A program made the translations under genes and the position numbers. A stretch of DNA of 64,000 nucleotides, taken from positions 1,488,001-1,552,000 of the forward strand of contig NZ_OU912926.1 of assembly GCF_918378365.1 (NCBI RefSeq), read 5' to 3'. Positions within the stretch are counted from its first letter, which is position 1. Each line of letters starts with the position of its first letter. This document shows positions 1,906 to 44,835 of the stretch, piece after piece. This stretch comes from Candidatus Nitrotoga arctica (lineage in GTDB: Bacteria; Pseudomonadota; Gammaproteobacteria; Burkholderiales; Gallionellaceae). Under the pieces are notes generated by a model. That model was not told where the DNA came from. It saw only the letters and a list, made by a program, of their open reading frames with translations, and ran no database searches.

Positions 1906-3552
1906 ATGGGGCTGGCAGGTATCGAGTCTTGAGGTGTTAAATTATGCACATTCAGCTTGGATGCAGACGATTAAAATTATTTATATCTAAGCTGCGTTAA
2001 CCCACTTATTTAAGTCGGGTGTAGTTGAGTTACAGTGATTTTTCGGTTTGGTTGTCGTGGCATTGCTTGGATTTCTGCCTCATCCAAAAATGAAATCCAA
2101 CATTTATTTTGTAGTGTGTGTTGCGAGTTTTGGAAGGCATAGTTTGGCCTATCTAAATGTTGCTGCAACAGAACGGAATATTCACATCGACCGAAATTAG
2201 CAATAGATCATTTTTGTTCAAAAGAGCTGTAAGCCTGGTCAATTCCAACTGCTTTGTTGTAGCGGATACTTGGGCAAATATTTAGTTTTGCATCCGCTCC
2301 CGATTAATTATTATCTGTTTCGCAGGTTACCAATTAATACCTGTGGCGACATTAATAATCGACAGATTTACAGGTAGCCAAGAAAAAAAGTTCATGACAT
2401 AGCTCATCACTTCTGTGTGGCAACTTTCTCGCTATTGATGAACTATGAAAGTCTGCTTGGAACGGAAGCAAGCTTTTGGGTGTAGCTGACCAGTCTCTCT
2501 GGGTATTGTTAATGCTGCTGGTATATAAAGAAAAATTCCTGTCCCCAGCAGCGTAACTTTGCAATCAATTTTTTAAATTTCACGATTCCTCCACTGTTTT
2601 CAAATTCATTAAAAATTTGCTCACACTTCCGCTACTCCTCATTCAGTAACGGCTGTATAACTTGTAACTTTATAGCGCCCTTGAGTTTTGAAAGAAATTT
2701 CAAACTATGATTTCAACGCTAGAAGAGCAAGTGTATGAACCGGAGGACAAGGGATCCTGTATGTGTTGATGGTCAAACACGTTGATCATGAATTCTTGAT
2801 TTGTGGAGTGATTGCATTGCCGCGCAAGCTTGAAACATAAGCATAACCGGCTAATATCGCCAGGAATGGACAGTCACCCTGTGCTCATGATATTGCGCGT
2901 TTCGGATGCATTCTGGCTGCTGTCATGCAGAATGTGTTGCTTAATAAAACAATATATCAAACTCAGTTTGTTATTAATATTTCTGTCGCTATCTCGGCAA
3001 ATCTCAAATACCAAATTCAACTACCACCTACTAAAGTAGGTGGGTTGAGGCTACGTCCGCCGCCCACTAAGAGTGAGCGAACCGTGGCGGACTACGCTAA
3101 AACCATATTCACAGAGCATGTAATGAAACTCATAGCATTTAAAACCTTAAATGCACCAGCTAAAGCAGGTGGTTTTTACCAATTGATGGAAAATTAAAGT
3201 AATGAATAAAATATCCGTTAAAGATACATAGAAAGTACATTTTCTGGAAATAGTTACTTATCCAGAACGTAGTGGCAGTTAAATATGGCGCTGTATGCGG
3301 CGTATATGTTGTAGATAGCAGTCGGGTGAAATTCAGGCTGTGATAAGTTGTTGAGCAAGATATTCAACCCCTCAGTGTGAGATTAGTGGCACCCCTATAT
3401 CGGGCAGCAATGAAGTAGCACTGATTTTAGATGTGTAATTGTTGGTTCAATAATTAGCCAATCGGAAAACATGTCTATGTAACGAATGTAGGTGCCTCGC
3501 TCAATATGGGGTTCCATATTTATATTTAAAATATTAACAAGAGAGGCTGGTT
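1906..3552. other. Gene-poor stretch between cheB and mcp
   Basis: About 1.6 kb with no convincing gene on either strand. The few short open frames have no recognisable protein features, and the 90-codon one at 2925-3197 merely runs through the hairpins described at 3024-3177. The sequence is AT-rich. I see no clear terminator behind cheB and no convincing sigma-28 or sigma-54 site in front of the MCP at 3553. The stretch sits between the two copies of the cheR-cheD duplication and may be rearrangement debris. Confidence 0.6.
3024..3177 (+). repeat. Three-hairpin palindromic element (IS200/IS605-end-like)
   Basis: Hairpin 1 (3024-3043) is a perfect 9-bp stem, CCACCTACT-AA-AGTAGGTGG. Hairpin 2 uses GTCCGCC (3055-3061) with GGCGGAC (3086-3092) around an inner GCCCACT/AGTGAGC stem. 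Hairpin 3 (3154-3171) is CACCAGC-TAAA-GCAGGTG with one mismatch, followed by TTTTT. Hairpins 1 and 3 share the pattern CACCnnCTAAAGnAGGTGG about 130 bp apart. Paired subterminal palindromes like these mark IS200/IS605 ends and their transposase-less derivatives. That assignment is inference; a structured RNA is the alternative. Confidence 0.5.
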
Positions 3553-5871
3553 ATGTTTAAAAACATGAAAATAGGTATGCGTCTTGGATTTGGATTTAGT
3601 TTGGTATTGATTTTACTAATAATAATAGCGTCGATAGCAATTACACGACTTTCAAAATTGAATGAAATGTTGGATCTGGTGGTTAGTGATAGAAATATTA
3701 AAGTGGCTATGATTACGGATATCAATAATGAAACCAATAAAATTGCTATCGCGCTAAGAAATATGTTGCTCACAGATAAACGCGATGATCTGGTAAAGCA
3801 GGAAGATAAGGTTATCGAAGCGCGGAAAAAAATTCAAGACAATGTAGATAAGTTACAAAAGCTTATCGCATTGCCGAAAGGAAAGGAGATGCTGCAACAT
3901 ATTCTGGATGATCGCGCAAAGTATATCGATAGCCAGAAAAACTTGATAACCATGATTAAAGATGGGAAGAAAGACGAGTCGCGGGCATTTATGACTAACG
4001 TACTACGGCCCACCCTGGAAGCTTATCAAGCTAATTTGAATGTTTTTAACGATTTTCAAGTTGAGTTAGTTCGGACAACCGCCAAGGAGGCTACCGAAAA
4101 CTATAACTTTGCACGTAACTTAATGCTGGCCCTGGCAACAATTGCTTTAGGGCTAGCTGCAGGTATCGCCTACTGGGTCACGCGCAGCATAACAAATCCA
4201 TTGAATGAAGCAGTGAGTGTGTCTAATCAGTTGGCTAAAGGTGATCTGACTGTCAAGGTCAATGTAAATTCTAAAGATGAAACTGGCCAACTGCTCGCAG
4301 CCATGCAAATCATGGCAGACAATATTCGTTCGAACGTAGAGGAGGCGGCAAAAATTGCCAATGAAAATCTGCGTATTAAGATCGCATTGGATAGCGTTAG
4401 TACCAATGTGATGATAGCCGACAATGATCGAAATATTATTTACGCGAATGCCGCTGTTGTAAGTATGTTGTCTAATGCTGAAGCTGACATGCGCAAGGCT
4501 TTGCCTAATTTCTCGGTGGCGAGATTGGTCGGTTCCAATATCGATCAATTCCACAAAAATCCGTCACACCAGAAGCACTTGCTTGCCACTTTCAACAGTA
4601 ACCACAAGGCGCAAATTACCGTGGGTGCCCGTATATTTGGGCTGTCGGCTAATCCGGTGTTGAACGATAAGGGTGAGCGCCTTGGCAGTGTTGTCGAATG
4701 GAATGATCGCACTGTAGAGGTGGCGATCGAAAATGAGATCAGTTCTATTGTTGAAGGGGCAGTGAATGGTAACTTTACTTTACGGGTTGTAGAAGAAGGG
4801 AAAACCGGTTTCTCCGCTAAAGTTAGCACAGACATCAATCAATTAATGGCAACCAGCGAGGAAGGACTGAACGATGTATTGCGTGTTCTTGCAGCCCTTG
4901 CTCAAGGCGATCTAACGAAAACCATAGAGAAGGAGTACGCGGGAACATTTGGTGAATTGAAGGTGGCTAGTAACGAAGTAGTTGAAAAATTATCGCATAT
5001 TGTTACCGACGTAATCAGTTCAACGGATGCCTTGTTACAAGCCTCAGAACAGGTTAGTGCCACTTCACAATCGTTGTCACAAGCTGCTAGCGAACAGGCA
5101 GCCAGTGTGGAAGAAACCAGTGCCTCGATCGAGCAGATGAGCGCTTCAATCAGCCAGAATACCGAAAATGCCAAGGTTACCGACGGTATGGCCAGCAAGG
5201 CAGCCAAGGAAGCGACCGAGGGTGGCGAGGCGGTCGGGCAGACAGTGTCGGCCATGAAGGAAATCGCAAAGAAAATCAGCATTATCGACGACATTGCCTA
5301 TCAGACGAATTTGCTTGCGCTCAATGCTGCCATCGAAGCAGCCCGGGCGGGCGAACATGGCAAGGGTTTCGCAGTAGTGGCAGCGGAGGTGCGCAAACTG
5401 GCTGAACGCAGCCAGGTGGCGGCGCAGGAAATTGGCGAGCTGGCCTCCAGCAGCGTCGGGATGGCGGAGAAGGCTGGCAGACTGTTGGATGAAATGGTGC
5501 CCTCCATTAACAAGACTTCCGATTTGGTACAGGAGATCAGCGCCGCATCGGAAGAGCAATCTTCCGGCGTGAGTCAGATCAACAACGCCATGGGACAGTT
5601 GAATCAGATGACTCAGCAAAATGCATCGGCATCCGAAGAGCTGGCTGCAACCGCTGAGGAAATGAGCGGTCAGGCGGATCAACTGCAAGGGATAATGGGA
5701 TTCTTTACAGTAAAGACGAATACCAGCGGCAGCCAGCAACGTCAGGCTGCTGTAAACAGGGTAGCTGCATCTACAAATAGCAAAGCTGCACGCCCGGCCA
5801 AGGCAAAAGCAAAAGCTGCCATGCACGCCCTTGCTGGCATCCCGAATGAAGCTGAATTTGCCCGATTTTAA
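3553..5871 (+). CDS. Methyl-accepting chemotaxis protein with PAS-like segment
   Basis: 772-aa transmembrane chemoreceptor. TM1 is at about 13-31, followed by a helical periplasmic domain of four-helix-bundle type (about 35-190), TM2 (about 190-208) and HAMP (about 210-262). A PAS-like segment follows (about 275-390, [20 protein letters not shown]), then a second HAMP-like stretch (about 400-490). The cytoplasmic signalling hairpin has its tip near 575-620 ([20 protein letters not shown]). The tail is Ala/Lys-rich and ends in aromatic-containing EFARF, which might serve as a CheR/CheD tether, but that is a guess. The RBS GAGAGG precedes the ATG. The cheW gene follows after 12 bases, so the two are probably co-transcribed. 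The ligand is unknown. Confidence 0.95.
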
Positions 5872-15449: not shown

Positions 15450-16118
15450 TTACTGGATGATGAAAGAGGTAAATAGAACGTCCACGATGCTGTTCTCCTT
15501 TTCGCCGTTGGGCTTGGCGGATTCCACTTTTGAATCTGATGTGGCGGATGACTCTTCGGCGCTTGTTGCTTCTACTGGACTAGTTGCTTCTACGCTGGAT
15601 ACAACACCGGATTTTGCACTTGCATCAGCAATTGCATTGGAGACGGCGGGCGCAGTACGCAGGCCAAGCACGATCTCGGTTTCAGCAATAATTTCATTGA
15701 CGAGTTTTTTTTTGCCTTTGGATGCAGTTAATTCTGAAGGGTATTTGCCGGACAGCAGTACCAACAGGCGGCTGCGAATTTCTGGAAGATTTTGCTTAAT
15801 TTTTTCTTCCAGTTCTGGCTGAACGATTTTTAGTGTGATGCCGATTTGTAAAAATTGGTCAGCTGTCTCGCGTTGCAAGTTAACCGTAAAAGGCTCCAAC
15901 GCAATAAATTTTATGTGCTCGGATGATTTGGTAGTCTTTTTGTCGCTCTTGCCGTTGTGATTTTCGCCCTTGGTAAAGTACCATCCTGCGCCGCCCGCAA
16001 TCCCTAAAACCAAGACACTCCCTATGATGATGAACAATATTTTTTTGCTTTTTGGTTTTGTCTGGACTTCAGTAGGTAGAGGATCCGACTCTGTTTTTTT
16101 AGTTACCGGTTTTACCAT
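15450..16118 (-). CDS. fliL: Flagellar basal body protein FliL, with C-terminal linker insertion
   Basis: 222-aa inner-membrane protein that surrounds or supports the stator. It has a cytoplasmic N-terminus, one transmembrane helix (about 27-47) and a periplasmic SPFH-like domain starting FIALEPFTVNLQ. The final strand VDVLFTSFIIQ is typical. Between the last long helix and that strand lies a low-complexity stretch of about 45 residues rich in Ser/Ala/Glu (about 160-207), containing the tandem VEATSPVEATS, which ordinary FliL proteins lack. A 217-bp gap separates it from fliK. Confidence 0.93.
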   Translation of the reverse strand: MVKPVTKKTESDPLPTEVQTKPKSKKILFIIIGSVLVLGIAGGAGWYFTKGENHNGKSDKKTTKSSEHIKFIALEPFTVNLQRETADQFLQIGITLKIVQPELEEKIKQNLPEIRSRLLVLLSGKYPSELTASKGKKKLVNEIIAETEIVLGLRTAPAVSNAIADASAKSGVVSSVEATSPVEATSAEESSATSDSKVESAKPNGEKENSIVDVLFTSFIIQ

Positions 16119-16335
16119 TGCAGCTCCTTAATTTTCTGAGTTGAATTATCAGAGAAATTCAATCGGTATGATAAATGGAATAAGGCGGAGAATTCCCGCC
16201 AACTTGGCATTTAGTAATGTTCTGGTTCGGTAACGCAGTTTTCTTTTCTGTTGAGAGGAGAGAATAAAACCGTGGTTATTTCTAACCCCCTAAAATTAGG
16301 AACTCGCATAATTACCGTATTTATTGCGTTGTTCA
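16119..16335. other. fliK-fliL intergenic gap with palindrome
   Basis: The only sizeable gap in the fliF-fliR series. It contains a short palindrome GGCGG-AGAATTC-CCGCC near 16181-16197, followed on the minus strand by TTATT. This could act as a weak terminator or operator between fliK and fliL. A poly-purine GGAG lies before the fliL start. I could not identify a sigma-28 or sigma-54 promoter with correct spacing. Confidence 0.4.
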
Positions 16336-17423: not shown

Positions 17424-17885
17424 TTAGATATCGTCTTGTGCAGCCATGACTTTGCGTGCAGAGTGACGCCCTGTGTGTTCGTCCTGTTGTCGCTGTTCTA
17501 ATTTTTCTTCCAGTTTTTTTTCTTTTTCTATATGGCGTTGTGCCAGCGTATCGAAAGATCTCATTTTGCGCTGCGTATTTTCCAGTTCATTTCGTCCGGT
17601 TTGGATCGAGTGGCTTATTTGTTCAAGGGCATTGCGTTGTTGTGTAACTGCTTCGTCCAGACGGCGAATAAAATTTTGAAAATTACGCAAATTAATTTGA
17701 TTGATACCGTTCTGAATCTCTTGCTGCAAGCGCATCTGATAGTCTTCGCGATATTGTTCCAAGGTATGTAGCTTAGTTTGTGCGGCCTGCTGTTGCTGGA
17801 TTAACTGGCCGAATTTTCGGGTGGCATCATCATTTTTCTGGTGTGCCAAATGTACCAGCGGTTGCATGGAAAATATCTTGGACAT
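17424..17885 (-). CDS. fliJ: Flagellar export chaperone FliJ
   Basis: 153-aa, highly charged coiled-coil protein that binds the FliI ATPase ring and helps deliver substrates to the export gate. Near-continuous heptads run from about 15 to 140, with QLIQQQQAAQTKLHTLEQYR and NFQNFIRRLDEAVTQQ typical of FliJ. It lies 12 bases downstream of fliI and 14 bases before fliK. Confidence 0.94.
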   Translation of the reverse strand: MSKIFSMQPLVHLAHQKNDDATRKFGQLIQQQQAAQTKLHTLEQYREDYQMRLQQEIQNGINQINLRNFQNFIRRLDEAVTQQRNALEQISHSIQTGRNELENTQRKMRSFDTLAQRHIEKEKKLEEKLEQRQQDEHTGRHSARKVMAAQDDI

Positions 17886-17897
17886 GGTTTAGTTACC

Positions 17898-19346
17898 TCA
17901 GTGTAGATCTTCAAATAGATGGTTAAAGGCGGTGATACCGCTAGCATAGGATTCACGCTCGAACATACCTTGCTTGAGGAAACGTTCCATATAGGGATAG
18001 AGCGTAATCCCTTCGTCCAATAATGGATCGCTGCCGTTGACATATGCGCCAACACTGATTAAATCGTGGTTACGTTGATAATGTGCATATACGTGTTTGA
18101 AGCGGTGTACCAAGGTGAAATGCTGTTCTGAAACAAGGGAATTCATAGCGCGGCTGATGGAGGCCTCGATGTCTATGGCAGGGTAATGACCTTGTTCAGC
18201 CAAGCGGCGCGATAACACAATATGGCCATCTAAAATGGCCCGTGCGCTATCGGCGATAGGATCTTGTTGGTCATCTCCCTCCGTGAGGACAGTATAGAAC
18301 GCGGTGATTGAGCCGCCCCCTTCGGTGCCGTTACCGGCACGTTCCACCAACTGGGGCAGCTTGGCGAATACCGAAGGTGGATAGCCTTTGGTGGCGGGGG
18401 GCTCGCCAATCGCCAGTGCAATTTCGCGCTGCGCCATGGCATATCGGGTGAGTGAATCCATAATAAGCAATACATGCTTACCCTGATCACGAAAATATTC
18501 GGCGATAGTGGTGGCATAGGCGGCGCCTTGTAAACGCATCAGCGGACTGGTGTCGGCAGGGGCTGCGACCACAACTGAACGCGCCATGCCTTCTTCTCCC
18601 AGAATATTAGTGATGAATTCCTTCACTTCGCGTCCGCGCTCGCCGATTAATCCCACTACGATGACATCGGCACTGGTATACCGCGCCATCATGCCGAGTA
18701 ACACACTTTTTCCGACACCACTGCCAGCGAATAGTCCCATGCGTTGGCCGCGTCCGACAGTGAGCAGATTATTAATAGCCCGTACGCCGACATCCAGAAC
18801 ATCCTCGATCGGTGCGCGGTTCAGTGGATTGATGGGACGGCTTTGTGAGGGTGCGGTTGTTACTGCCACTAGCGGTCCCAACTGATCCAGTGGACGGCCA
18901 GCTCCATCCAGCACTCGGCCAAGTAACTTGTCACCTACTGGCAGATGGCGTGTGTGATCAGTTGCGCGCCGCCGGAAGGTACGCTGTTTGCCGCCCAGCA
19001 GTGGCGCACTCACCGGTTCTAGCGGCACTACGCGCGCGCCGGGTATCAGTCCATGAACGTCATTTTCTGGCATGAGAAATAGTTTTTCCCCAGAGAAACC
19101 GACCACTTCCGCTTCGATTCGATTGTTGGGTAATTCGATAACACAAGTGCTACCAACTGCCATCTTTAAACCGACCGCTTCCATTACGAGCCCGGTGACC
19201 TTGGTCAAGCGGCCACTGATTAATAAAAGTTTGCTCTGTGCGACGAATTTCTGGTTGTTTTGCAGGCAGGCTTGCCAATGCTGGGCATGGTCGTCCATGG
19301 GAGCCAGAATGGCGGGGGGAGGGGAGTGAATGATAGGGGAGGTCAT
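17898..19346 (-). CDS. fliI: Flagellum-specific ATPase FliI
   Basis: About 482 aa. F1-type ATPase of the flagellar export apparatus: Walker [16 protein letters not shown], Walker [20 protein letters not shown], the conserved [25 protein letters not shown], and the family stretch [21 protein letters not shown] use the ATG at 19346, which overlaps the fliH stop as ATGA. A start at 19358 is also possible. It works with FliH and FliJ. Confidence 0.97.
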
Positions 19347-39387: not shown

Positions 39388-40341
39388 TGATTAGGTTCGC
39401 TATCAAGCCCGGCACAATAAAATTGTTGGCGTGTACTTAAGAAATCGCCCATGGTTAGTTCTTTGTAATAAAAAAATTATTGATTGTAAATCATAAGATC
39501 TTGGTTTTATAGCTGCTACGAAAGACATTTCTAAATGTATTGAGGGCGTGCGTAATCGTAGGTTTCGATTACGACTAAGCCCCAGGATGCCATTAGTTTT
39601 GCTGCTTAAGGTTGCACAAGAGTCGGTACAGAGGTGAGTGCACAGAAATTTAATTGCGCAGTCCGACACTCCCCTGAGTACTAAGCAAAATTAGTAATAT
39701 TATTTCTTCCAATATTGCATTCCATCTACAATGTGAATATAATTACGAATCGTTATCATTAATAATTCTATTTTTGGTCTTTTAGCTGCACGTTAATTAA
39801 GAAAAATTAAACTTTAAGATACTTGTGATGTATAAATTTCAATTTTTAATTGACAGCAAAGTAAGCTTTTTTTTAAGTAGAATTTCAGTGTTCAGTGTGT
39901 AATACAGAATTTTTCCATCCCGCGCTAGCACATCCCGCGCAAGCCAATTATGGCTGGATCCTAGTCTTAGCATGGAACAACAACAATGCAGGAAATCGTC
40001 TTCGACCTATGTGTGTAGCGCTTGCATTATCAGCTTATGGCCCCTCCAGCTGTACAAATTACCGGGTTCATATGAGTGTGTTCGACAAGCTATTGAAAAG
40101 TGCCGTCGAATATCTACGCTACATAACAGATACATCATGGTACCGGAAACTGCTGGACATCGATTTTTACGATGTGCAAGGACTTAACTTATTGTTAAGT
40201 GGTAAGTTGAATTTTGCCAAGCCAGAGCAATCAATACGCGGATGCAAAAAGCATGGATAAAATCTGGGTACAGGTATTTTTGACTGTAGCCATGCATGTC
40301 ACAGCGTGGGGTGCACATAACCCATACCCGCGGAGATAAAG
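39388..40341. other. Long intergenic region between thiO and tonB
   Basis: About 950 bases. It has an 8-bp hairpin CGTAATCG/CGATTACG at 39551-39573, the Fur-box-like site at 39742-39760 and a long AT-rich stretch to 39890. Short plus-strand frames at 39895-40260 and 39972-40187 have no recognisable protein character. A small uptake-related protein or a long leader could be hidden here, but I cannot support one. Confidence 0.5.
39742..39760. promoter_or_regulatory. Fur-box-like operator
   Basis: ATTACGAATCGTTATCATT compares with the palindromic Fur consensus AATGATAATnATTATCATT. The right half (GTTATCATT) matches 8 of 9 and the left half 5 of 9. It is in an AT-rich promoter-like area upstream of tonB-exbB-exbD, which are classic iron-regulated genes, though it lies some 580 bases before the tonB start. 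Confidence 0.55.
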
Positions 40342-42558
40342 TTGAATCCACTTTCATATATTTATCCTCCCACCCCAGCCTCGCGTGAGCGAGCGGTTGT
40401 CGTTGCGGTTGTCGTGGTACTGCACTTAGTCGTTTTGTATCCCACAATGGCACAATCACAGGGGGCTTCCAAGCCGATGCGAGAGATGAAGGTGACAGTT
40501 GCGATGGCTGACAAGCCTGCTCCACTTTCTGCATCACCATCAACTGCTGCTCCTTCCTTGCCTGGTAAGAAAAAGCCGCATGTTGCTGAGCCAGTGCCTG
40601 ATCCATTGAAGCCTGAGCCTGTTGCACAGGCAGTAGAAATACCCATTGAGAAACCTGTCGAGCCGGAAAAAAGTTCAGATCCAATAAAAATTGATACCGA
40701 AACGGCGGAAAAAATCAGGCTAGAGCAAGAAGCTGCGCTCGCCAAAGCGAGAGAGGAAGCAGAGGCTGCACAACGCAGGGTAGAACAGGAAGCAGCAAAA
40801 ACCAAAGCCGAGCAAGCCGCTGCGCTAGCCAAGGTACAAGCAGAAGCCAAAGCAAGAGTAGAAAAGGAGCTTGCCCGCCTTGAAGCAATGCAAGAAGCGA
40901 AAAGAGTCAAGGCAGAGCAAGAAGCAGCAGAAGCCAAAGCACAAGCAGAAGTTAGGGCACAAGCAGAAGTCAAGGCGAGAGCAGAAGTCGAAGCTGTAAG
41001 ACTCAAGGAAGAACAGGAAGTAGCAAAAGCCAAGACGGAACAATTAGCTGAGCAGGCTAGAGCAAGAGCAGATGCCTTAGCGCAAGCACAGGCCAAAGCT
41101 GAAGCCGAAGCAATACGTCTTAAGGCGGTGCAGGAGGCAATAAGAGTCAAGGCAGAACACGAAGCAGCGCAAGCTCGGGCAAAAGCTGACGTCTTGGCCC
41201 ATGCGGAGGCTGTCCGTATCAAAACGGCGCAGGAAGCAGCAAGAGCGAGAGTAGAGCACGAAGCTGTACAGGCTCGGGTAAAAGCTGCAGTCATGGCTCA
41301 TGCCGAAGCTGTACGCATTAAGACGGAGCAGGAAGCAACAAGAGCGAGGGTAGAGCACGAAGCTGCGCAGGCGCGGGCAAGAGCAGAAACCGTAGCGCGT
41401 GTAGAAGCCGAAGTTCGCCTTAAAGCAGATCAGGAAGCGGTGAGAGTCAGGGCAGAACAAGAGGTCGTGCAGGCCCGAGCGAAAGCTGAAGCCATGGCAC
41501 ATGCGGAAGCTCTACGGTTCAGGGCAGAGCAAGAAGTTGCCCGAGCCAGAGCAGAACATGATGCCGCTCAGGCCAGAGCAAGGGCAGATGCCATGGCACG
41601 TGCGGAAGTTGAAGTTGCCCGAGCCAGAGCAGAACATGAAGCCGCTCAGGCCAGAGCAGAACATGAAGCCGCTCAGGCCAGAGCAAGGGCAGATGCCATG
41701 GCACGTGCGGAAGTTGAAGCTGCCCGAGCTAGAGCAGAACATGAAGCCGCTCAGGCCAGAGCAAGGGCAGATGCCATGGCACGTGCGGAAGTTGAAGCTG
41801 CCCGAGCTAGAGCAGAACATGAAGCTGCTCAGGCTAGAGCAAGGGCAGATGCCATGGCACGTGCGGAAGTTGAAGCTGCCCGAGCTAGAGCAGAACATGA
41901 AGCTGCTCAGGCTAGAGCAAGGGCAGAAGCCATGACACGTGCGGAAGCCGCACGGCTTAGAGCAGAGCAAGAAGCTGCACAAGCCCGGGCAAGAGCAGAA
42001 GCCATGACACGTGCGGAAGCCGAGGCCGCCCGTCTCAAGGCAGAACAGGAAGCGGCGAGACTCAGGGCGGAACAGGAAGCTGCACTCGCTAAGGCCAAAG
42101 CTGAAGCCATAGCGCGTGCAGAAGCCGAAGCTGCCCGCCTCAAAGCTGAGCAGGAAGCGGCGAGAATTAGGGCGGAACAGGAAGCGACGCTCGCTAAGGC
42201 CAAAGCTGAAGCGGACGCCAAAGCGCGTGCCGCAGCCGAAATGGCTCGCCTCAATGCAGAGCAAAGCGAGCCAAGTTACAAAGCATTTTATCACCTGAAA
42301 AATGCGAGCCCATCATACCCAGTTGCAGCACGTCGCATGGGTTTGCAAGGCAAGGTGATATTGAATGTAGAAGTACTGGCCGATGGTTCGTGCGGTCAAG
42401 TCAGTGTGGCTAAGAGCAGCGGTCACACCATGCTCGATGACAATGCGTTAGAAACCGTGAGATCTTGGCACTTTATCCCTGCCCGTCAGGATGGGGAGGC
42501 AATTAACAAATGGTTTAAGGTACCAATCATTTTTTCTTTGAAAGATAACGAAACATGA
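40342..42558 (+). CDS. tonB: TonB-family protein with long TolA-like helical domain
   Basis: 738 aa from a TTG start preceded by GGAG. A single N-terminal membrane anchor (about 16-34) is followed by a Pro/Lys/Glu-rich stretch (about 55-115). A very long Ala/Glu/Arg/Lys helix (about 120-640) of AExEAARxRAEHEAAQARA type follows, like domain II of TolA. A TonB C-terminal domain (about 650-735) ends it: YPVAARRMGLQGKVILNVEVL, and SSGHTMLDDNALETVRSWHF. Ordinary TonB is about 240 aa. Next to exbB and exbD it should energise outer-membrane uptake receptors. The ATGA overlap with exbB indicates coupling. Confidence 0.9.
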   Translation: MNPLSYIYPPTPASRERAVVVAVVVVLHLVVLYPTMAQSQGASKPMREMKVTVAMADKPAPLSASPSTAAPSLPGKKKPHVAEPVPDPLKPEPVAQAVEIPIEKPVEPEKSSDPIKIDTETAEKIRLEQEAALAKAREEAEAAQRRVEQEAAKTKAEQAAALAKVQAEAKARVEKELARLEAMQEAKRVKAEQEAAEAKAQAEVRAQAEVKARAEVEAVRLKEEQEVAKAKTEQLAEQARARADALAQAQAKAEAEAIRLKAVQEAIRVKAEHEAAQARAKADVLAHAEAVRIKTAQEAARARVEHEAVQARVKAAVMAHAEAVRIKTEQEATRARVEHEAAQARARAETVARVEAEVRLKADQEAVRVRAEQEVVQARAKAEAMAHAEALRFRAEQEVARARAEHDAAQARARADAMARAEVEVARARAEHEAAQARAEHEAAQARARADAMARAEVEAARARAEHEAAQARARADAMARAEVEAARARAEHEAAQARARADAMARAEVEAARARAEHEAAQARARAEAMTRAEAARLRAEQEAAQARARAEAMTRAEAEAARLKAEQEAARLRAEQEAALAKAKAEAIARAEAEAARLKAEQEAARIRAEQEATLAKAKAEADAKARAAAEMARLNAEQSEPSYKAFYHLKNASPSYPVAARRMGLQGKVILNVEVLADGSCGQVSVAKSSGHTMLDDNALETVRSWHFIPARQDGEAINKWFKVPIIFSLKDNET
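41539..41955 (+). repeat. 78-bp minisatellite inside tonB
   Basis: Five tandem units begin at 41539, 41617, 41722, 41800 and 41878. Each codes for 26 residues of the pattern ARARAEHEAAQARARADAMA plus RAEVEA. The second unit has an extra internal duplication of 27 bp. Nucleotide identity between neighbouring units is very high, so they arose by recent slippage or recombination, always in multiples of three. Confidence 0.93.
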
Positions 42559-43211
42559 ACAATCTATTTTCCGTTGGTTCGCCTGTTGTAGCTGCCACAC
42601 TGCTACTTCTTATTTTTCTGTCCGTAGCGACTTGGTCAATTGCCTTGCTCAAACTATGGCGGCAAATGCGGAACGATAAATCCAATCGTGCCTTCAGTGA
42701 TGTCTTCTGGGCCGCACGCGACTGGCACGCTGCGGCTGAGGTGGCGCAGCAAGGTTCGAGCGACTTGGCGCGGTTGGCGCAAGCAGGTTTTGCCGAAGTG
42801 AAAAACTTGAGTGCTGAACAGCAAGACTTGAAACATATCGGTGCGCCGCAAGACGTATTGGAACGCATGCTGCGGCAGCAAGTGGAAAATATGCAACGCT
42901 ATCATGAACGTGGCTTGGCCGAACTCGCTACGATAGGCTCGACCTCGCCGTTCGTCGGTTTGTTCGGTACGGTCTGGGGCATCATGCACGCGTTGCAGGA
43001 CATAGGCACAAGCGGTTCAGCCAGTCTGGATGTGGTTGCCGGACCGATAGGTGAAGCGCTGATTGCGACTGCCATCGGTATCGCCACTGCGCTCCCCGCA
43101 GTGTTAGCTTACAACTATTTCCTGCGCCGCCTGCGCGTGCAAGTAACAGAGCTGGAAAATTTCGCGCACGATTTCGTGCGGCTGGCATTTAAACATAATT
43201 TCAAACTGTGA
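42555..43211 (+). CDS. exbB: ExbB/TolQ proton channel protein
   Basis: 218-aa MotA/TolQ/ExbB family protein. Three transmembrane segments are seen: about 10-32, 128-150 and 165-190. The family region is GLAELATIGSTSPFVGLFGTVWGIMHALQDIG, and it ends with GPIGEALIATAIGIATALPAVLAYNYF. It forms the proton-conducting complex with ExbD that powers TonB. It starts inside the tonB stop codon (ATGA) and lies 7 bases upstream of exbD. Confidence 0.95.
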   Translation: MNNLFSVGSPVVAATLLLLIFLSVATWSIALLKLWRQMRNDKSNRAFSDVFWAARDWHAAAEVAQQGSSDLARLAQAGFAEVKNLSAEQQDLKHIGAPQDVLERMLRQQVENMQRYHERGLAELATIGSTSPFVGLFGTVWGIMHALQDIGTSGSASLDVVAGPIGEALIATAIGIATALPAVLAYNYFLRRLRVQVTELENFAHDFVRLAFKHNFKL

Positions 43212-43218
43212 GGTCATT

Positions 43219-43629
43219 ATGGCAATGAGTAATTCAACGCAACAGGGAATGATGAGCGAAATCAATGTAACGCCGCTAGTAGATGTGATGCTGGTGCTGC
43301 TGGTGGTCTTCATCGTTACTGCACCACTGCTTACCCCGCAGTCGCTCAAAGTTGCTCTGCCCAAAACTACAGCGGTAGCAGCCTCGGACCCGATAAAACT
43401 GCTTCCAGCATTGCTGACTGTAGATGCACACGGACAGATCGAGCTTGACAACAACGCTTTGAGTGACTCGCAACTGGCAGACATTTTAAAACAGCGAGCG
43501 GCCGATCCGCAGTTTCAGATGAAAATTGAGGCAGACAAGGCCGTGCCTTATGGTCGCGTGGCGGAATTTATGGCAATTGCGCAACATGCCGGGGTAACCA
43601 ATCTGTCTTTTGTAACAATTCGTCAGTAA
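43219..43629 (+). CDS. exbD: ExbD/TolR protein
   Basis: 136 aa. One N-terminal transmembrane helix with the conserved proton-channel aspartate in NVTPLVDVMLVLLVVFIVTAPLL, followed by a periplasmic domain (about 45-130) ending AIAQHAGVTNLSFVT. It completes the TonB-ExbB-ExbD complex. Confidence 0.95.
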   Translation: MAMSNSTQQGMMSEINVTPLVDVMLVLLVVFIVTAPLLTPQSLKVALPKTTAVAASDPIKLLPALLTVDAHGQIELDNNALSDSQLADILKQRAADPQFQMKIEADKAVPYGRVAEFMAIAQHAGVTNLSFVTIRQ

Positions 43630-43779: not shown

Positions 43780-44835
43780 ATGAATTTCTTACACCTAACG
43801 ATTTTATTCTTGTTTGTCACCATTCTTGCTGCTTGCTCTACTACTGAAAAAACGGTTGTTAAAGAGGTTCCTGGCGTATCAAAAGAATTGTCACCAGAAA
43901 ACATATTGACGCCAATGCAGCAGGAGATTGAAACAGCAAATACAAAAAAGCAATTGGATATCAAAAATATCAATGATCAAGATTTAGATGTTCGTAAACC
44001 TGCAAAAACTATTGAGTCATATCAGAAAGAAGCGGCCCAAGGGGATAGTAATGCCGAATATGCACTGGGTATAAAGTATCGTAATGGCGATAATGTCGCC
44101 CAGGACTATGCTAAAGCCAGAGAGTGGTTTCAGAAATCTGCTACTCAGGGACATGCGGCTGCACAGACCATGCTTGGTAATATATACCGCAAAGGCGAGG
44201 GTGTAGATAAAGATACTAATAAAGCCATAGAGTGGTATGAGAAGGCCGCTGCACGGGGAGACGCAGGTGCGCAACTTAATCTTGGCTGGATGTATCGTAA
44301 TGGCGAAGGCGTTGCCAAGGATGCTACTAAAGCCGTAGAGTGGTACCAAAAAGCTGCTGCACAGGGAGATCCTAGTGCGCAATATGCAGTTGGTATGATG
44401 TATCGCAAAGGGTTGTTAGGCGTACCCAAGGACGCCGCTAAGGCAATTGAGTGGTATGAGAAAGCTGCTGTGCAGGGAGATGCGGGTGCGCAATTTATCC
44501 TTGGCGGAATGTATCGCAATGGCGAAGGCGTTGCCAAGGATGCTACTAAAGCCGTAGAGTGGTATCAGAAATCTGCTGAGCAAGGATATCCGATTGCGCA
44601 AACTCTCCTTGGTCATATGTATCGCAATGGCGAAGGCTCAGCCATAAATGCAGCTAAAGCTGCGGATTGGTATCAAAAAGCTGCTTTACAGGGAGATCCA
44701 GAAGCGCAATTCATACTTGGCTCGATGTATCAAATTGGTGAAGGAATACCAAAAGATGATGCCAAGGCACGCGAATGGTGGCAAAAAGCCGCGGCACAGG
44801 GAGATCCTAATGCACAAGCTGCGCTGGCACGGTGA
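43780..44835 (+). CDS. Sel1-repeat lipoprotein
   Basis: 351 aa. Lipoprotein signal peptide with lipobox ILAAC (Cys19). From about 85 to the end come about eight Sel1-type (TPR-like) repeats of 36 residues, each with the pattern A-x-LG-x-MYRNGEGVAKDATKAVEWYQKAA. Such proteins are scaffolds for protein-protein contacts at the envelope. Its partners are unknown. It lies 150 bases after exbD with no obvious shared operon signals. Confidence 0.93.
   Translation: MNFLHLTILFLFVTILAACSTTEKTVVKEVPGVSKELSPENILTPMQQEIETANTKKQLDIKNINDQDLDVRKPAKTIESYQKEAAQGDSNAEYALGIKYRNGDNVAQDYAKAREWFQKSATQGHAAAQTMLGNIYRKGEGVDKDTNKAIEWYEKAAARGDAGAQLNLGWMYRNGEGVAKDATKAVEWYQKAAAQGDPSAQYAVGMMYRKGLLGVPKDAAKAIEWYEKAAVQGDAGAQFILGGMYRNGEGVAKDATKAVEWYQKSAEQGYPIAQTLLGHMYRNGEGSAINAAKAADWYQKAALQGDPEAQFILGSMYQIGEGIPKDDAKAREWWQKAAAQGDPNAQAALAR

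Follow-up and report, generated by a model that had tools for sequence, protein, structure and literature searches.

TonB and TolA, of the ExbB-ExbD-TonB and TolQ-TolR-TolA systems, are homologous proteins (PMC12204202; we draw on excerpts of this and of the other papers cited below). For domain II, which runs from the end of the membrane anchor to the last 100 residues, that 2025 survey gives 40-245 residues in TonB, with a median of 113 and a mostly Pro-rich, in some cases helical, make-up, and 110-335 residues in TolA. The two lengths are weakly correlated (0.28), and periplasm width was proposed as a possible cause, with few width measurements to test it. Two Escherichia coli cases are close to what we describe here. 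Its tolA gene holds an in-frame repeat with a variable copy number that affects stress tolerance (PMC3477136), and in the engineered strain Lpp+21 a longer outer membrane-to-peptidoglycan tether goes with a periplasm of 32-36 nm, compared to an inter-membrane distance of 30-32 nm, in one study under hyperosmotic conditions (PMC8824477). We analysed a window of 64,000 nucleotides (the whole stretch of DNA, positions 1,488,001 to 1,552,000 of contig NZ_OU912926.1 of the nitrite-oxidising bacterium Candidatus Nitrotoga arctica) that encodes a TonB, TonB1, with a domain II of 601 residues. TonB1 is a known protein in kind; what is new is this extreme helical domain II within a coordinated set of stretched envelope proteins, and an earlier note on this DNA, made from the letters alone, had understated it. 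A limited search of the open-access literature found no paper tying Nitrotoga to TonB, TolA or Tol-Pal.

The domain plan of TonB1 (Table 1) is that of a TonB throughout. As the earlier note had read it, a TonB C-terminal domain (PF03544, 86.2 bits; TIGR01352, 76.9 bits, cut-off 27.1) is joined to a single N-terminal anchor at residues 19-37, whose conserved histidine, H28, is invariant in all five aligned Nitrotoga sequences; exbB and exbD (PF01618, PF02472) lie directly downstream. Between anchor and TonB_C a run of 529 residues lacks Pro and Gly and consists of 36% Ala, 17% Glu and 13% Arg, in agreement with the helix of about 500 residues proposed there. Domain II as a whole, with the anchor placed by hydropathy, contains 16 Pro and lies outside the Pro-rich form of 40-245 residues that is typical of TonB, although this form is not strictly defining. 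AlphaFold2, run with five orthologues as input, gives three long helices (residues 119-313, 334-457 and 461-640) with moderate confidence (mean pLDDT 63, pTM 0.21). A match to lysostaphin among solved structures (residues 417-536) was set aside as a low-complexity chance match.

Does the long helix make TonB1 a fusion of Tol-like and Ton-like architecture, as had been suggested? TonB1 resembles TolA in its long Ala-rich helical spacer. It differs in its TonB_C terminus and its exbB and exbD neighbours, it is not encoded with tolQ, tolR, tolB and pal, and the window genome has a separate TolA in a tol-pal cluster (G000:C1, about 953000-964500). Because its score of 37.6 bits against the tolA_full model is below the cut-off of 59.45, we regard TonB1 as a TonB and not as a TonB-TolA hybrid. 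Its closest orthologues in the outgroup, which share 61-69% identity over the C-terminal region, also argue against a fusion, being ordinary Pro-rich TonBs.

Outside the genus, domain II is 68-101 residues long in 20 of the 22 orthologues of the family that were read (two could not be parsed), which makes the earlier estimate of at least three times the standard length true but too modest. A search of 158 genomes of the family found 83 places outside the genus that match the TonB C-terminal region with at least 91.9 bits, 77 of them in open frames of at most 275 residues. Six frames of more than 300 residues (G025, G031, G033, G036, G097 and G098) were examined as possible long TonBs; their extra length is an additional upstream frame, and their domain II measures 78-101 residues. 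The start of the long domain II in Nitrotoga carries a Pro-rich stretch resembling the short form, and the helix reads as a lineage-specific insertion between this Pro-rich remnant and TonB_C, which probably took place in the ancestor of Nitrotoga proper.

In an rpoB tree the window genome (G000; one contig of 3.30 Mb) falls among Candidatus Nitrotoga, and in eight Candidatus Nitrotoga records ExbB shares 86-99% identity with that of the window genome, with five at 98-99% (HW29, 99%). Other genomes are referred to as G001 (N. fabula ZN8), G003 (SPKER), G004 (LAW), G005 (MKT) and G013 (HW29). An exbB orthologue with 86-100% identity is present in 10 of the 19 genus genomes. In half of these ten (three drafts and two one-contig genomes) tonB1 is complete, with open frames of 745, 705, 680, 521 and 492 residues and domain II lengths of 601, 561, 536, 377 and 348 residues, every one above the survey maximum of 245 (PMC12204202). 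In the other five, all of them drafts, the contigs end within the repeat; in G013 the N-terminal half of tonB1 was found at the end of another contig. Because the gene is whole and long in three drafts and in another one-contig genome besides that of the window, and orthologues outside the genus are ordinary, the long TonB1 is a lineage trait and not an artefact. The short TonB in close relatives that had been feared as the sign of an assembly expansion does not appear inside the genus.

Tandem Repeats Finder detects periods of 78, 99 and 105 bp in tonB1, all in-frame, so that the minisatellite of 78 bp in the earlier note is present but is not the sole unit. Since each period is divisible by three and the array is not the same from one species to another, length can change without a frameshift, as was expected. 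The repeat units are species-specific: 26-residue units contain AEVEAAR, AEAEAAR or AEADAAR, and G005 has a distinct unit of its own, a pattern to be expected if a minisatellite turned over separately in each lineage. Near-identical repeat makes up a part of the helix; much of the helix is of another kind and can be aligned across species. The helix is more than a chance feature: within 364 kb of the window genome (made up of the window and of 15 samples of 20 kb taken at even spacing, with the tol-pal locus outside the samples), tonB1 is the only gene with a Pro/Gly-free run of at least 150 residues that has at least 55% A+E+K+R+Q in an open reading frame (ORF) of at least 200 residues; 300 kb of the relative G029 contain no run by the same criterion.

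Three proteins of the tol-pal cluster are stretched as well. TolA domain II measures 273-374 residues in 12 genus members compared to 85-133 in nine genomes outside the genus, and the distance from its anchor to domain III is 311-413 residues in 12 Nitrotoga genomes compared to 122-193 in 37 outside genomes (40 tried, three not parsed). The Pal linker is about six-fold longer, at 202-405 residues in 10 genus members vs. 36-62 in eight genomes outside, and the CpoB frame comprises 676-840 residues in 11 genus members vs. 253-343 in ten outside. Across the family, Pal-like frames outside the genus have 165-277 residues among the matches listed. Within the genus, short forms were found for TolA domain II in G010, G011 and G018 (120-139 residues; G002, G007, G015 and G016 unreadable), and in these three genomes and G007 for the Pal linker (41-80 residues; three genus genomes cut by contig ends and two in which Pal was not found) and the CpoB frame (258-382 residues; four genus genomes unread). 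The repeats of TonB1, TolA, Pal and CpoB are unlike one another in sequence and period, and therefore one repeat has not spread among them. TolA domain II and Pal linker lengths rise together within the clade (r 0.88, n=10, not corrected for descent).

The giant TolA, Pal and CpoB of the window genome are encoded outside the window (G000:C1:953000-964500; L122, L310). AlphaFold2 predicts TolA helices at residues 109-181, 192-292 and 301-416 with moderate confidence (mean pLDDT 64), and domain II of the TolA of the window genome has the look of an internal duplication (112 residues align with 44% identity and an E of 5e-24 that is inflated by composition). The long Pal has the lipobox LVAC and a Pal-type OmpA domain and lies in the tol cluster; the better of the two TIGR02802 matches in the genome has an E of 1.9e-37. 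Downstream of pal and cpoB come a second pal, whose linker is (Gly-Ser)n (6-bp repeat, 15.5 copies), and a short ORF resembling cpoB; other clade members likewise carry a second Pal, of 224-264 residues, close to the first. The ORFs after the cluster are presumably queE and queC. Frames outside the genus of more than 320 residues (in at least 20 genomes) were considered as further long TolA proteins, and 20 of 20 read have an anchor-to-domain-III distance of 122-177 residues. The TolA matches of G015 and G004:C21 belong to a protease/TolA_C fusion paralogue and were not counted. In this paralogue (L140, G004:C21:110500-115000; L130, G015:C89) the TolA C-terminal domain is matched in a protein with an Ala/Glu/Lys helix, and the other parts read like a trypsin-like protease region, MORN-like repeats and, in the G004 protein, Sel1-like repeats as well.

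A tree of TolQ, TolR, TolB and the C-terminal domains of Pal and TolA places 14 genomes in one clade (SH-aLRT 100; a short search with SH-aLRT as the sole support value, G002 left out and the genus not resolved as one group). This clade contains every elongated gene, and G007, G010, G011 and G018, with their short Pal and CpoB, fall outside it. None of the clade members read has reverted to the short length (0 of 12 for TolA, 0 of 10 for Pal and 0 of 11 for CpoB). A nitrite-oxidoreductase-like alpha subunit (frame of 1155-1169 residues, below the family cut-off), taken here purely as a marker of lineage, is present in 11 of 13 elongated and none of four short genomes (Fisher p 0.006, not corrected for descent; G002 and G016, with TolA, Pal and CpoB all unreadable, were omitted). 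In the window genome, three near-equal-scoring copies of a molybdopterin-oxidoreductase-type alpha subunit with a 1169-residue frame were seen at about 203755-205920, 548931-551096 and 690047-692212 of G000:C1; this subunit is probably that of nitrite oxidoreductase (NXR).

The elongation is not shared by all envelope proteins. TolQ, TolR and TolB are of unchanged length in the clade, and ExbB is not stretched, with open frames of 219-230 residues in ten Nitrotoga genomes. Two OmpA-domain proteins of the window genome, of 256 and 323 residues, turned out to be MotB-type stators, which connect the inner membrane to the wall and are not stretched (counterparts in other genomes were assigned by score and length only). 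Because these stators are unchanged and Pal is stretched, the outer membrane-to-wall side of the periplasm is indicated.

With a helix rise of 0.15 nm per residue, the helices reach roughly 75 nm in TonB1, 44 nm in TolA and 54 nm in Pal. With extended non-helical parts included, the reach is 106, 64 and 68 nm, respectively, compared to about 29, 33 and 17 nm in outgroups. The wide periplasm described in PMC8494671 gave Nitrotoga its name, and we infer a link between this width and the length of the proteins: TonB1, TolA, Pal and CpoB were probably lengthened to bridge or tether a widened envelope, chiefly across the gap between outer membrane and wall. The interpretation in the earlier note, which had raised reach across an unusually thick periplasm, is supported in part. 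ExbB and ExbD would move the TonB1 anchor by the proton gradient, as in any Ton system, and a domain II lengthened some four- to seven-fold by the tandemly repeated Ala/Glu/Arg helix would relay this movement over a periplasm too wide for an ordinary TonB. TonB_C would then bind the TonB box of outer-membrane receptors, of which the 13 Plug-domain places in the window genome may include those served by TonB1; the helices would have to be extended in vivo. The long helical linker of Pal would allow the peptidoglycan-binding domain to contact the wall even where the outer membrane lies far from it, and the lengthening of TolA and CpoB would keep Tol-Pal coupled. Slippage or recombination in the repeats may be the source of the length variation. 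By analogy, E. coli tolA, which likewise has an in-frame tract of varying length in a periplasm-spanning protein (PMC3477136), serves as a precedent for tuning by repeats, although in Nitrotoga four genes are concerned, at the level of a clade and with much longer spacers.

Could Pal itself set the width? Tentatively, and with more doubt than we attach to the bridging of a widened envelope, the long Pal together with the long CpoB can be seen as a ruler that creates the Nitrotoga ‘toga’, in which the helical Pal linker, with its up to 405 residues, would set a wide gap between outer membrane and peptidoglycan, and TolA and TonB1 would be stretched in step. Lpp+21 E. coli is similar in having a longer outer membrane-to-peptidoglycan tether; it is engineered, whereas Nitrotoga would be a natural case, with Pal as the tether and with lengthened transducers too. 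If true, such a ruler would mean that a natural change in the width of the periplasm, encoded as numbers of repeats, defines the clade. On the question of how the length of envelope-spanning machines is fitted to periplasm width, the Nitrotoga set suggests that bacteria may lengthen envelope bridges to match the width of the envelope. The genus offers a test case, with a wide periplasm, ordinary relatives, four stretched proteins in one clade and internal unchanged controls.

Several observations weigh against the bridging of a wide periplasm. For N. fabula KNB the literature speaks of a periplasm ‘not enlarged as much’ (PMC6050957), and N. fabula ZN8 is long all the same (TolA domain II 317, Pal linker 326, CpoB 726 residues). 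In gamma-proteobacteria TolA domain II is typically far longer than the periplasm is wide (PMC12204202), and therefore excess length alone is no proof of a wide periplasm; in Nitrotoga it exceeds the survey maximum of 335 residues in just 8 of 12 genomes, in some by few residues. A second TonB of the window genome, TonB2, has an ordinary domain II of 107 residues, and its frames measure 242-266 residues in 13 genus genomes (cut in a fourteenth), so that some TonB works without a long helix. TamB, considered as a further stretched bridge and present in 7 of the 25 genomes in which it was sought, shows no elongation either (1304-1318 residues in five Nitrotoga, 1501 in the outgroup G112). The unchanged TonB2 and TamB speak against a periplasm that is wide throughout; both may function only at places where the two membranes approach each other, or the periplasm may be widened only locally. 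Furthermore, there is no clear correlation between TonB1 and TolA in length (rho 0.5, n=5), TonB1 varies almost two-fold among relatives with near-constant TolA, two metagenomic Nitrotoga-like TonBs have just 408 residues, and the TonB1 orthologue is missing from 4 of 14 clade members (G009, G012, G015 and G017). Loss of receptors gave no clean fit to this absence, with Plug counts of 4-8 in genomes without TonB1 and 6-14 in carriers.

The main rival to a role in reach is neutral expansion, in which domain II spacers tolerate nearly any length and slippage lengthened Ala-rich helices without selection. Such tolerance has been described: E. coli tolA is at least partly functional with 2 to 39 repeats, and the tract varies among strains (PMC3477136). 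The almost two-fold spread of TonB1 within the clade would fit as well, and repeats are not rare in the window genome, because its 300-kb sample contains five tandem arrays of at least 150 bp (three in ORFs) compared to two in G029. Neutral drift does not readily explain why four functionally linked proteins with unrelated repeats were stretched in one clade while TolB, TonB2, the MotB-type stators and TamB were not, why no TolA, Pal or CpoB of the clade went back to the short form, or why the 364 kb contain no further long helix of the Ala/Glu type. We therefore hold it to be rather unlikely, though it deserves to be taken seriously.

It is less probable still that the helices serve force and not reach, having replaced polyproline for better force transmission or letting the transducers bundle with CpoB, with width incidental. 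The survey ties a helical domain II to greater transduction efficiency than polyproline and reports the excess length of gamma-proteobacterial TolA mentioned above (PMC12204202), both of which fit this explanation; yet the 348-601 residues of domain II in TonB1 are far over the maximum found there for TonB, and Pal, which tethers the outer membrane and is no transducer, has been lengthened too. An over-expansion of the repeat during assembly of a truly short gene we regard as hardly credible. The 78-bp copies are near-identical and the contigs of five of the eight drafts with the locus break in the tract, as an artefact might give, but the whole genes from five assemblies differ in their unit sequences, and much of the helix is not near-identical repeat and can be aligned across species.

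Table 1. Features of tonB1 and its neighbours (positions in the window)
Feature	Position	Strand	Evidence
Shine-Dalgarno-like GGAG and TTG start codon of tonB1	40332..40344	+	Sequence
tonB1, TonB of 738 residues with very long helical domain II	40342..42558	+	ORF list, domain profiles, alignment
Transmembrane anchor of TonB1, residues 19-37, conserved His	40396..40452	+	Hydropathy peak 2.52
Putative Pro-rich remnant of ordinary TonB domain II	40507..40695	+	Sequence; like Pro-rich linker of short outgroup TonBs (e.g. L074)
Pro/Gly-free Ala/Glu/Arg helix, 529 residues	40684..42270	+	Composition; AlphaFold2
Tandem repeat, 99-bp unit, 2.7 copies, in-frame	41126..41388	+	Tandem Repeats Finder
Minisatellite, 78-bp unit (26 residues) and 105-bp variants, in-frame	41524..42019	+	Tandem Repeats Finder; unit comparison
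Tandem repeat, 105-bp unit, 2.1 copies, in-frame	41994..42212	+	Tandem Repeats Finder
TonB_C domain (PF03544), residues 656-733	42307..42540	+	E 2.1e-24, 86.2 bits, cut-off 24.6
exbB (MotA/TolQ/ExbB family), ordinary length	42555..43211	+	PF01618, E 3.7e-36
exbD, ordinary length	43219..43629	+	PF02472, E 1.9e-27
Sel1-repeat gene between exbD and aroE	43780..44835	+	PF08238, 7 stretches

Translation of tonB1 starts at a TTG behind GGAG, with no in-frame ATG ahead of the membrane anchor. This start is kept in four of the five full-length Nitrotoga orthologues, and G004 has an in-frame ATG instead. The start of exbB overlaps the stop codon of tonB1, and exbD is next. Both proteins score nearer to the tolQ and tolR than to the exbB and exbD equivalog models, yet under every equivalog cut-off. 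The Sel1-repeat gene holds a 108-bp repeat and occupies the same place in seven of the nine Nitrotoga loci searched (not in L014 and L016); it was not found in the two loci searched outside the genus (L017 and L019). Among metagenomic proteins, P0003 (507 residues) has a TonB C-terminal domain 71% identical to that of TonB1; it lacks a long helix, and its N-terminal part contains several hydrophobic segments.

Two further repeat loci of the window genome were noted in the 20-kb samples. In L338 (G000:C1:760001-780000) two adjoining ORFs of 655 and 716 residues each contain a 153-bp tandem repeat (15791-16316 and 17586-17962), and in L341 (G000:C1:1420001-1440000, 3548-5516) an array of two kb with periods of 71-72 bp and their multiples lies outside long ORFs and is possibly a CRISPR array.

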